The notes beneath the pieces were generated by a model. The model had not been told where the DNA came from. It did no database searches and saw only the letters and a program-made list of their open reading frames with translations. A stretch of DNA of 36,566 nt. Source: Verrucomicrobiota bacterium (lineage in GTDB: Bacteria; Verrucomicrobiota; Verrucomicrobiia; Limisphaerales; SIBE01). The position numbers and the translations under genes are program-made. The stretch spans positions 1 through 36,566 of the forward strand of contig VHCZ01000033.1 in NCBI GenBank assembly GCA_016871535.1, read 5' to 3'. Below are positions 4,071-12,101 of the stretch, one piece after another (position 1 is the stretch's first letter; the number at the start of each line of letters is the position of its first letter).

Positions 4071-6740
4071 ATGAATTCTCCAGTACCTTCCGAAGCCAAA
4101 GTCGTCATTGTCGGCGGCGGCATCATTGGCTGCAGCGTCGCGTACCACCTCGCCAGGCTGGGCTGGAAAGACATCGTCCTGCTGGAGCAAAACCAACTGG
4201 CGGGCGGCACGACGTGGCACGCGGCTGGTTTGATTGGCCGGTTGCGCACCAGCAACAGCATGACCAAGATCAACAAATACAGCGCGGAACTGTATGCGTC
4301 GCTGGAGAAGGAAACCGGCCATTCCACAGGTTGGAAACAGGTGGGGAGCCTGATTGTGGCGCGCTCGGAAGATCGGATGATTCAACTGCGGCGCACGGCG
4401 GCGATGGCGGAATTGTTCGGCGTCGAAGTCCAGCTCATCGCTCCGAAAGCCGCCCTGGAGAAATGGCCGTTGCTTCGGATCGACGATGTCCTGGGCGCGG
4501 CCTGGTTGCCGCACGATGGAAAGGTGATCCCAAAAGAAGTCGCGCTGGCACTGGCGAAAGGAGCCGAGGCGCGAGGCGTCCGCGTCCTCGAAAATGTCCG
4601 CGTGATCGAGGTGCTGCACCGGAAGGGCCGGGTGAGCGGCGTGCGTGTGGCTTCCGGAGCATCGCCGATCGCCAATAGCCAATTGCCTAGCGCCGGCTCC
4701 GAATCTCAAATCTCAAATCTCAAATCTCAAATTCTCGAAGCCGAGTTTGTCGTGCTTTGCGGCGGGATGTGGGCGCGGCAACTCGGCCTGGCGTGCGGCG
4801 TGAATCTTCCGCTCTATCCGGTCGAGCACCATTATGTCGTGAGCGCTCCAATTTCGGGCGCTTTCGATGAGTTGCCCGTCGGGCGGGACCCGGACCTGTG
4901 CCTTTATTTCCGAGGCGAAGGAAATGGCGTGATGCTGGGCGCGTTTCAGAAATACACCAAACCGTGGCTTTCGTATCCGGTTCCCGACCGTTTTTCTTAC
5001 CAACTCCTGGAGGCGGACTGGGAGAAATTTTCGGAACCTCTCCAAGCCGGCCAATGGCGCATTCCCGCGCTGGCCGGCGTGAAGTTTGAGAAGTTCGTGA
5101 ACGGCCCGGAGAGCTTCACCCCGGACAACAACTTCCTCATGGGCGAGACTCCGGAACTACAGGACCTGTTCGTGGCCGCCGGCTTCAACTCGGTCGGCAT
5201 CGCAAGCGCGGGCGGCGCCGGCAAATATCTGGCGGAATGGATGAGCGAAGGCCAGCCGACCATGGATTTGTGGTCGGTCGATGTGCGCCGCTTCGCGCCT
5301 TTCGCCAACAACCTGGCCTTTTTGCGCGAGCGAGTCACGGAGGTGCTGGGGCTGCATTATCAACCGGCCTGGCCGAACCGCGAGTTCGAGACCGGACGCG
5401 GTTTGCGCAAAAGCGCGCTCCACGACCGCCTCGCCGCCCAAGGCGCTTGCTTCGGGTGCAAGAACGGGTGGGAACGCCCGAATTGGTTCGCGCGACGCAA
5501 TGATGAACCCACCCCTGCTCCCCTCCCAGGAGGGGAACTGGCCCGCGATGTCCCACCGGGAAGCTCCCCTCCTGGGAGCAGCAAGGAGTGGGGCCACAAC
5601 ACAGGTGCGCACGACAAATTCCAGAAATATGCCGAAAAGCCGGTTGTTGAATACTCCTTCAGCCGCCAGAATTGGTTCGCCAACCAGGCCTTCGAGCACC
5701 GCGCCGCGCGGGAAAACGTCGCTCTGTTCGACCAAAGCGGCTTTTCCAAGTACATGTTCCGAGGCCGCGACGTCGTTCAAGTTTTGCAGCGGCTTTGCGG
5801 CAACGACATCGATATCCCGATGGGACGCGCGGTGTACACCGGGCTGTTCAACGAACGCGGAGGATTTGAGTCTGACCTCACGCTCATCCGCATCGCCGCG
5901 GACGAGTATTACGTGGTTTCCGGGTCGGCCCAGACGACGCGCGATCTCGATTGGATTCGGCGCAACCTCCGCGAGCCCGAACACGCGGAAATCGTCGATG
6001 TGACCGAAGCATACGCGGTTCTGGGTTTGATGGGACCGAACTCGCGCGCGCTGCTCGGACGGTTGACGGAGGCTGATTTGGGCAACGAAGCTTTTCTCTT
6101 CTGCACCGCACAAACCATCTCCGTGGGACCGGCGACTGTCCGCGCGGTGCGGATCACTTACGTGGGCGAATTGGGCTGGGAACTACACGTACCCGCGAGC
6201 CAGGCGACGCTGGTCTATGACGCGTTGAGGGAAGCGGGAGGGGATCTCGGCCTGATCAACGCGGGCCATTACGCGATCAATTCGTTGCGCCTGGAGAAAG
6301 GCTACCGCGCCTGGGGAGCGGACATTTCGCCCGACGACACGCCGCTCGAAGCGGGGCTTGGTTTCGCGATCGCGTGGAACAAACCGACTCCGTTCATTGG
6401 CCGCGAAGCCCTCGTCGAACAGAAAAAGAACGGCGTCAAACGCCGGCTCGTGGTCTTCGTCCTGCAAAATCCCGATCCGACGCTGTGGGGCAGCGAACCG
6501 ATTTTCCGCGATGGCCAACCGGTTGGGTACACGACTTCCGGCTCTTACGGACACACGGTCGGTGGAGCCGTCGGCATGGGTTACGTGAACAGCGCGGCGG
6601 GCGTTACGGATGACTCTGTCCGCAAGGGGCGCTTTGAGATTGAGGTCAACGGAAAGCGCTATCCAGCCTCGGCGCATTTGCGCGCGCCGTATGACCCGGA
6701 GCGCAAGCGGATTCTGGGGCAGCAAACAGTAATTCAGTAA
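4071..6740 (+). CDS. FAD-dependent oxidoreductase fused to GcvT domains (dimethylglycine/sarcosine dehydrogenase type)
   Basis: An 889-residue protein. The N-terminus is a DAO-type FAD domain (VVIVGGGIIGCSVAYHLARLG, residues 11-31) with GGTTWHAAGL, in which H50 matches the His that carries covalent FAD in dimethylglycine and sarcosine dehydrogenases. An FAO-type middle domain follows (to about 470), then a folate-binding aminomethyltransferase domain (VSGSAQTTRDL, YVGELGWELH, LRLEKGYRAWG) and its C-terminal barrel. The expected activity is oxidative demethylation of an N-methyl amino acid with transfer of the one-carbon unit to tetrahydrofolate. I chose ATG 4071 because the FAD motif starts 10 residues later; the upstream in-frame TTG at 4002 adds a tail unlike the family. 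Two repeat-derived inserts keep frame: residues about 198-222 (heptamer repeat) and 480-508 (palindromic element between the oxidase and GcvT halves). No partner gene is adjacent. Confidence 0.9.
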   Translation: MNSPVPSEAKVVIVGGGIIGCSVAYHLARLGWKDIVLLEQNQLAGGTTWHAAGLIGRLRTSNSMTKINKYSAELYASLEKETGHSTGWKQVGSLIVARSEDRMIQLRRTAAMAELFGVEVQLIAPKAALEKWPLLRIDDVLGAAWLPHDGKVIPKEVALALAKGAEARGVRVLENVRVIEVLHRKGRVSGVRVASGASPIANSQLPSAGSESQISNLKSQILEAEFVVLCGGMWARQLGLACGVNLPLYPVEHHYVVSAPISGAFDELPVGRDPDLCLYFRGEGNGVMLGAFQKYTKPWLSYPVPDRFSYQLLEADWEKFSEPLQAGQWRIPALAGVKFEKFVNGPESFTPDNNFLMGETPELQDLFVAAGFNSVGIASAGGAGKYLAEWMSEGQPTMDLWSVDVRRFAPFANNLAFLRERVTEVLGLHYQPAWPNREFETGRGLRKSALHDRLAAQGACFGCKNGWERPNWFARRNDEPTPAPLPGGELARDVPPGSSPPGSSKEWGHNTGAHDKFQKYAEKPVVEYSFSRQNWFANQAFEHRAARENVALFDQSGFSKYMFRGRDVVQVLQRLCGNDIDIPMGRAVYTGLFNERGGFESDLTLIRIAADEYYVVSGSAQTTRDLDWIRRNLREPEHAEIVDVTEAYAVLGLMGPNSRALLGRLTEADLGNEAFLFCTAQTISVGPATVRAVRITYVGELGWELHVPASQATLVYDALREAGGDLGLINAGHYAINSLRLEKGYRAWGADISPDDTPLEAGLGFAIAWNKPTPFIGREALVEQKKNGVKRRLVVFVLQNPDPTLWGSEPIFRDGQPVGYTTSGSYGHTVGGAVGMGYVNSAAGVTDDSVRKGRFEIEVNGKRYPASAHLRAPYDPERKRILGQQTVIQ
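4671..4735. repeat. heptanucleotide repeats inserted in frame in the FAD oxidoreductase gene
   Basis: Two GCCAATW units (4671-4684) are followed by four perfect AATCTCA units (4702-4729). The encoded residues (SPIANSQLPSAGSESQISNL) interrupt the FAD domain between VRVASG and LEAEFVVLCGG, which would otherwise be contiguous in the family. The insert therefore acts as a low-complexity loop, and a change of one repeat unit would shift the frame. Confidence 0.75.
5508..5594. repeat. 87-bp palindromic element inserted in frame
   Basis: The left arm (from CCCACCCCTGCTCCCCTCCC) and the right arm (ending GGGAGCAGCAAGGAGTGGGG) are imperfect reverse complements around a short centre. The element is 29 codons long and encodes a Pro/Gly/Ser-rich stretch at residues 480-508 of the oxidoreductase, at the junction of its oxidase and GcvT halves. 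It resembles REP/MITE-type mobile palindromes, such as those that insert in frame into rickettsial proteins. Confidence 0.75.
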
Positions 6741-10916: not shown

Positions 10917-12101
10917 ATGCAACTCAGTCACGGGCTTCAACTAGCGTACTCGACAAACATCCACCGTGGAGAAAGTTGGCTGGAAACTTTCGCGGCGTTG
11001 CAGCAGTACACGTTGGCCGTACGCGAGCGGGTCTGTCCCACCAGGCCGTACGCGATCGGACTGCGTCTGAGCGACCTGGCGTCGCGAGAGCTTTCCGAGC
11101 CGAAGAGCCTCGCGGCGTTCCAGCGCTGGCTCGACGAGAACGATGGCTACGTTTTCACGATCAATGGTTTTCCCTTCGGCCGGTTCCACGGCGGCCGCGT
11201 CAAGGAGCAGGTCTATGTGCCGGACTGGACGACGCCAGAGCGCCTGGCGTACACGAACCGGTTGTTCGACCTGTTGGCTCAACTTGTGCCCGGCGGCGTG
11301 GAAGGAAGCGTCAGCACCGTGCCTTGTTCGTTCAAAGAATTCATCAAGAACGAGAATCAAATCCGGCAGATGCGGGCAAACCTCTGGCGCTGCATCGAAC
11401 ACATTTCGGCGTTGAGCGAACGAACCGGTAAGACACTACATCTGGGCCTGGAACCGGAACCGCTTTGCTTTCTGGAAACCAGCTCGGAGACGGCGGAGTT
11501 CTTCGACCAGATGCGGGCTGATCGTCCGGACGATCCGAGGTTGGAGCATTGCCTCGGGGTCAACTACGACACCTGCCATCTGGCGGTCGAATTTGAGGAG
11601 CCGGCGGCGGTGCTCCGGCGTTTCCAGAAGCATCGGATCAAAATCAGCAAACTCCATTTAAGTTCGGCGCTGAAAGTCCGGCCCACGCCGGAAGTTCGTT
11701 CGGCTCTCGGCGCCTTTGCGGACGACGTTTACCTGCATCAGGTCGTCGCTCAAGCCGAAGGCGGCGAGCTCACTCGTTTTCGGGATCTGGGCGACGCCCT
11801 GAATTGCCAATTGCCAATCGCCAATCGCCAATCTGAGGAATGGCGCATCCATTTCCACATCCCGCTGCACAGCCAGCCGACTCCGCTTTTCAACAACACC
11901 TCGGACCACCTCCTCGGCGTGATGGATGCGCTCAAGGAAAATCCCGGACTCTGCTCTCATTTGGAAATGGAGACCTACACCTGGGAAGTGATGCCCGCGG
12001 AAATGAAGAACCGCAGTGTGGTGGATCAGTTGGCCGGCGAATATGAATGGTGTCTGGCCAAACTGGCCGAACGGGGCATCGTGCGGGCGACTCCCAGTTG
12101 A
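10917..12101 (+). CDS. eboE: EboE-type TIM-barrel protein (sugar isomerase/epimerase-like)
   Basis: The 394-residue protein begins MQLSHGLQLAYSTNIHRGESWLETFAALQQYTLAVRERV and has VFTINGFPFGRFHGGRVKEQVYVPDWTTPERLAYT, EGSVSTVPCSFKEF, LHLGLEPEPLCFLE, NYDTCHLAVEFE and HIPLHS, the pattern of EboE ('metabolite traffic protein') in the xylose isomerase-like TIM-barrel superfamily. Acidic and His residues in these motifs suggest a metal site. Its reaction is unknown; the ebo clusters are associated with export or processing of prenylated or aromatic metabolites. Residues 296-304 (NCQLPIANR) come from a heptamer repeat inserted in frame. The gene follows a 200-bp gap containing a terminator-like hairpin, so it may have its own promoter. 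Confidence 0.88.
   Translation: MQLSHGLQLAYSTNIHRGESWLETFAALQQYTLAVRERVCPTRPYAIGLRLSDLASRELSEPKSLAAFQRWLDENDGYVFTINGFPFGRFHGGRVKEQVYVPDWTTPERLAYTNRLFDLLAQLVPGGVEGSVSTVPCSFKEFIKNENQIRQMRANLWRCIEHISALSERTGKTLHLGLEPEPLCFLETSSETAEFFDQMRADRPDDPRLEHCLGVNYDTCHLAVEFEEPAAVLRRFQKHRIKISKLHLSSALKVRPTPEVRSALGAFADDVYLHQVVAQAEGGELTRFRDLGDALNCQLPIANRQSEEWRIHFHIPLHSQPTPLFNNTSDHLLGVMDALKENPGLCSHLEMETYTWEVMPAEMKNRSVVDQLAGEYEWCLAKLAERGIVRATPS
11802..11829. repeat. Four heptamer units inside eboE
   Basis: AATTGCC twice then AATCGCC twice, in frame inside the eboE gene (residues about 296-304). The same word family (GCCAATT/GCCAATA) is found inside the FAD oxidoreductase gene at 4671-4684. Confidence 0.75.

Follow-up and report, generated by a model that had tools for sequence, protein, structure and literature searches.

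A dispersed palindromic repeat of a Verrucomicrobiota genome lies in frame within a dehydrogenase-like gene and within unrelated genes

The stretch of DNA analyzed here (the window: 36,566 nucleotides of contig VHCZ01000033.1 from a Verrucomicrobiota bacterium) contains a dehydrogenase-like gene that carries two in-frame insertions, one of which is based on a palindromic repeat. The features of this locus, together with other genes of the same genome (the host genome) that contain the repeat, are given in Table 1. The encoded protein contains the Pfam domains DAO, FAO_M, GCV_T and GCV_T_C, and its best solved relatives are dimethylglycine dehydrogenases. In agreement with the initial annotation, the repeat is located in frame within open reading frame 4071-6740. 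Its description as a linker between the oxidase and the folate domain holds in part: the repeat starts at residue 479, in a loop close to the junction of the two domains, and this position is just inside the GCV_T match (residues 450-766) and not exactly between the domains.

Table 1. Features of the dehydrogenase-like locus and other genes of the host genome containing an in-frame copy of the repeat
Feature	Position	Strand	Remarks
Gene for FAD-dependent oxidase + folate-binding protein, dimethylglycine-dehydrogenase-like	4071..6740	+	frame intact
Second in-frame insertion, 24 codons	4662..4733	+	with 7-bp tandem array 4702-4732; disordered in model
Dispersed palindromic repeat, window copy	5505..5595	.	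model positions 1-91; profile match 5505-5592; +-strand reading EPTPAPLPGGELARDVPPGSSPPGSSKEWG
Left inner arm of palindrome	5523..5539	+	contains core CTCCCAGGAGGGGA
Right inner arm	5562..5578	-	94% complementary to left inner arm 5523-5539
Remainder of the 44-codon insertion	5596..5636	+	variable among Verrucomicrobiota homologues
Urease gamma-beta fusion/linker	host genome		missing in 19/19 aligned relatives; query 137-176 vs 3 residues in 4g7e
Mfd	host genome, two copies		two-sided domain or homologue evidence
AddA	host genome, in-frame copy		two-sided domain or homologue evidence
Polyketide synthase (PKS)	host genome, copy between KS and AT		two-sided domain or homologue evidence
Multi-domain glycosyltransferase	host genome, in chain of glycosyltransferase domains		two-sided domain or homologue evidence
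HZS-alpha/cytochrome-type protein	host genome		two-sided evidence, but cytochrome match below Pfam cut-off

Comparison with other copies set the start of the window repeat at G5505 (GAACCCACC), and hence the start given in the initial annotation is located 3 nt inside the unit; the end is at about position 5595 according to the 91-position model. The unit of 88-91 bp is built of GAACCCACCCCTTCnCCCCTCCCAGGAGGGGA, ∼26 variable bases and the reverse complement, so that the family has terminal inverted repeats, and the ends of the listed host-genome copies are, by eye, GAACCC/GGGTTC-like. Near-full-length copies vary in length, being distributed 33:30:23 over the three classes modulo 3, which means that the 'exactly 29 codons' (87 bp) claimed for the element was a matter of where its ends were chosen. 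The palindrome itself is as strong as had been claimed: besides the complementarity of its inner arms (Table 1), the RNA fold of the 87 bases first delimited has an energy of -56.9 kcal/mol, compared to a mean of -38.9 for shuffled sequences (z -5.1), and none of 200 shuffles was equally stable. Within the window, the core CTCCCAGGAGGGGA occurs exactly twice, once per arm, and when up to 3 mismatches are allowed it is found at nine places against 3.3 expected. No Rfam family matched within the window, and the plasmid collection gave no match.

The insertion in the dehydrogenase comprises 44 codons relative to the shortest homologues, about 30 of which are explained by the repeat; entry 4pab, for instance, has five residues where the host protein has 49 (479-527). 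The homologues were compared in an alignment of 37 rows (the window and two sets of 14 and 22 rows), in which some genomes appear twice and in which the loop coverage of rows G001 and L163 is partial or nil. The peptide EPTPAPLPGGE is present in the window row and absent from every other row, and therefore the residues encoded by the repeat are not ones conserved in homologues. The loop is very short in most rows and differently filled in several Verrucomicrobiota. An AlphaFold2 model based on 28 sequences has a mean pLDDT of 88.8, and the only internal segments with pLDDT below 50, residues 197-213 and 485-515, are the two inserts. The repeat is probably translated as a floppy extra loop of the enzyme. 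A metagenome assembly artefact or a pseudogene could also produce such an insert, especially as the genome is in 460 contigs, repeats break assemblies and several copies are close to contig ends. Both inserts leave the frame open however, invariant residues of the aligned family are retained, and further genes, as well as genomes assembled separately, contain similar inserts, all of which makes this explanation very improbable.

The second insertion contains one of two 7-bp tandem arrays located in frame within genes of the window, the other one being at 11802-11833 in ORF 10917-12101. Ten tandem arrays were found in the window, six with a period of 7 and two more with a period of 14. The 7-bp arrays are similar to heptanucleotide repeats of cyanobacteria.

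The repeat is not unique in the host genome. A DNA search gave 83 matches on both strands, and the core with one mismatch was found at 56 forward and 54 reverse places (none with the reversed pattern as control). Of 65 loci fetched, five duplicated others, leaving 60 distinct loci. An iterated profile detected copies in 59 of these and at least 60 copies altogether, which is a lower bound because the best candidates alone were scored and some listed places were left unfetched. The 60 recovered copies, 47 of them near full length and 13 single-arm, bear directly on the idea that a low-complexity linker became palindromic at the DNA level by chance. Pro/Gly/Ser-rich codons in a GC-rich genome would favor such an outcome; so many related copies, mostly without two-sided coding signal, would not, and neither would the lack of an equally stable shuffle or the empty reversed-pattern control. 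The dispersed copies rule out a chance palindrome, to which we assign next to no probability.

To what extent the repeat occurs elsewhere was assessed with two patterns. Sampling of 196 genomes of the order gave 14 with the exact 16-base core, including both congeners and three of five further family members sampled, and a 26-base pattern with 2 mismatches was detected in the host genome only, among 288 genomes drawn from the class and the phylum (reversed-pattern control 0). Judged from these samples, the repeat is order-restricted and patchy in its range. Since further palindromic repeats flank many host-genome copies, the family belongs to a mosaic. On the borders of many copies, for example those at L003, L006 and L047, there are outer palindromes of the CCATGAACC/GGTTCATGG type and a GGTAGGGCGAG-type repeat, which suggests that several repeat families make up the mosaic. 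At L003, ORFs on the same strand at either side of the copy are in different frames and without Pfam support.

A copy was considered to be in frame within a gene when one frame runs through it and each side reaches a coding score of 7 log units or more; 600-nt ORF scores were used for this, replacing 180-nt codon-score windows because the latter were too weak for gene calls. By this codon test 11 of the 60 host-genome copies are in frame within genes, and the other 49 lack a two-sided coding signal. Besides the genes listed in Table 1, in-frame copies are present at L008, L044 and L056, for which domain support is one-sided or absent and the coding status derives from a crude codon score. The in-frame copy at L052 falls below the coding cut and has its core in another frame. 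The same rule applied to relatives G001, G002, G005 and G006, with 68 profile hits from 60 loci, yielded seven in-frame genic copies; those of congener G001 include one in a full-length Smc, at the hinge, and one in the linker of an AraC-GyrI-type regulator. An example of a predicted repeat-encoded peptide (urease, Mfd or Smc) is EPTPSPLPGGEL. Three genes (L007, L043 and L052) have in common a second translated module, FMGRVHGSETKEA-like, directly before the repeat.

The in-frame copies display a recurrent peptide in one preferred frame: the first arm reads PLPGGE-like in 15 of 18, that is in 9 of 11 host-genome copies, one of which (Mfd, core altered) was assigned by eye, and in 6 of 7 copies of relatives. 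The exceptions are L044, L032 and L266. Of 137 oriented near-full-length copies, 117, 111 and 77 are open in the respective three frames, and hence about 38% of copies would be expected in the PLPGGE frame. The corresponding tails, which are guides and not strict probabilities because the copies are partly non-independent, are 1.2e-4 for all 18, 0.004 for the host genome, whose copies prompted the idea, and, for the subsequently counted relatives, 0.015; adding the sub-threshold copy at L052 gives 15/19 and a tail of 3.8e-4.

Some of the loops that carry the window repeat are filled by other repeats in related genomes. The dehydrogenase loop of soil Verrucomicrobia L109 and L155 contains a different palindrome, which is dispersed in both genomes and has at most nine consecutive bases in common with the window repeat according to a short-word comparison. 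The urease linker of G001 contains a third palindrome, to which DNA of 12 further loci among those compared is similar. The Smc hinge (L347 in the host genome, L271 in G001) has different repeat families in the two congeners, a fourth repeat being present in the host genome where G001 carries a window-type repeat; other aligned relatives have shorter loops. DNA similar to this fourth repeat was found in 15 others of 365 loci compared, some of them overlapping, including Mfd of G001. In Mfd, inserts in one linker are common to both congeners, and that of G001 starts with an apparent decayed arm of a window-type repeat, so that insertion into this linker probably predates the split of the congeners. 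The presence of window-type and unrelated repeats in similar loops of several proteins indicates that repetitive DNA seems to add protein sequence repeatedly.

Such recurrence could mean that the translated insert is adaptive, the added disordered segment helping the protein through spacing, solubility or interactions and the repeats being retained for that reason. The fact that orthologues have different repeats in one and the same loop, the 15/18 frame bias and the Mfd linker insert common to two congeners would all fit. The host proteins are unrelated however and have no common function, many orthologues manage with a loop of a few residues, and tolerance combined with purging predicts the identical pattern; we consider adaptive retention improbable. 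A role at the DNA or RNA level between genes, as terminator, stabilizer of mRNA ends or binding site with the genic copies as by-products, would account for the 49 copies without two-sided coding signal and for the very stable hairpin, and similar roles have been proposed for REPs (PMC3733652). By itself, it explains neither the frame bias nor the reuse of loops. We regard it as rather unlikely to be the main explanation, and it is compatible with the one that we favor, not exclusive of it.

We favor, and consider very likely, that the repeat is a non-autonomous dispersed palindrome of a Verrucomicrobiota clade of which a minority of copies is tolerated in genes as disordered in-frame inserts. 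Copies would spread by transposition, with the enzyme acting in trans, and would insert mostly between genes, singly or beside other palindromic repeats. The minority in protein-coding genes, those seen being in frame in surface loops or inter-domain linkers, would be translated, and their stop-free Pro/Gly/Ser-rich reading may be tolerated as a disordered insert. Retention would then be near-neutral, with purifying selection purging harmful insertions.

The term 'mobile', used in the initial annotation, agrees with the dispersal and patchy presence of the repeat, from which mobility is inferred; it found no counterpart in a transposase tied to the repeat among the Y1-type genes examined. The host genome has 13 places with a Y1 (RAYT-type) transposase. 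A repeat-profile scan of these 13 Y1_Tnp loci, with L062 scanned alongside, showed none flanked by a full copy, and at L106 a truncated Y1 gene has a 16-bit remnant of the repeat at a distance of ∼95 bp. Likewise, none of 30 Y1_Tnp loci of relatives has a flanking full copy, and one (L335) has a copy more than 1 kb away. A CCCACCCC/GGGGTGGG pair around the Y1 gene of host-genome locus L096 was inspected and judged a coincidence. By eye, the host-genome copies, whose flanks often contain other repeats, have no consistent target duplication.

The best-known protein-coding palindromes are those of Rickettsia. Its RPEs are described, in the part of PMC10969869 that deals with them (citing Ogata 2000, 2002), as dispersed palindromic repeats of ∼100-150 bp that occur in intergenic positions as well as in frame within unrelated genes, where they encode a recurrent peptide. 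The window repeat is likewise palindromic, multi-copy, in frame in unrelated genes, absent from homologues and associated with a recurrent peptide, but it belongs to another phylum and has a GC-rich sequence of its own, the likeness being one of described features. The in-frame copies in several unrelated genes make the comparison apt, and the RPE-like process proposed initially is supported as a working analogy. That such a process would be notable in this phylum did not hold up, since intragenic REPs are already in print and the kind of element is therefore known: according to sections of PMC3733652, the largest number of GTAG REPs inside ORFs is that of Opitutus terrae (Verrucomicrobiota), many of them in DNA repair genes, and the REPs found at approximately one position of recB differ between two Xanthomonas species. 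The GTAG/CGTC REPs resemble the window repeat in being palindromic and within ORFs of the same phylum; the latter is longer, without GTAG/CGTC ends (by eye) and without adjacent RAYT gene. Compared to those sections, the frame bias was counted here and several sets of orthologues showed loop reuse. MITEs with ORFs or fused to genes, as outlined in part of PMC10969869, are also short, have terminal inverted repeats, lack their own transposase and form in-frame fusions, but for the window repeat no parent transposon was identified among the Y1-type genes checked, nor a target duplication. The TIRs of TIRYT transposases (TIRtrons), as far as the same sections of PMC3733652 describe them, are palindromic and may form abundant families. 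The loop repeat of L109/L155 contains GGGGAGAG, which by eye fits their GGGGWSAS motif, whereas visual inspection of copies of the window repeat did not show this motif, and no TIRYT was found with the window repeat on its flanks. A literature search of limited scope found neither the present repeat family nor loop reuse across several orthologue sets in print, and a limited search on repetitive or palindromic sequences of Pedosphaera gave nothing.

The results point to a separate protein-coding palindrome family in a phylum other than that of Rickettsia, located within conserved proteins (Smc hinge of a congener, Mfd, AddA, urease). Close relatives with empty or differently filled loops are natural before/after pairs, suitable for distinguishing neutral from useful inserts. 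Caution is required because repeat-derived peptides are part of the annotation of these genomes and of structure models based on them. More tentatively, several unrelated palindromic families may constitute a standing supply of translatable linkers that repeatedly enter the same few loops (dehydrogenase, urease gamma-beta, Mfd, Smc hinge), persist in one preferred frame, are in effect adapted to do no harm upon translation and can be transported by phages. Two viral stretches from IMG/VR (L344 and L345), identical over the 500 bases compared, contain a half-copy near the start of a lambda-type portal gene ORF (L345:10805-12544, + strand; the true start could be downstream), the sole named phage match of which is an Akkermansia phage portal (26%). 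Carriage of the repeat by phages is therefore possible.
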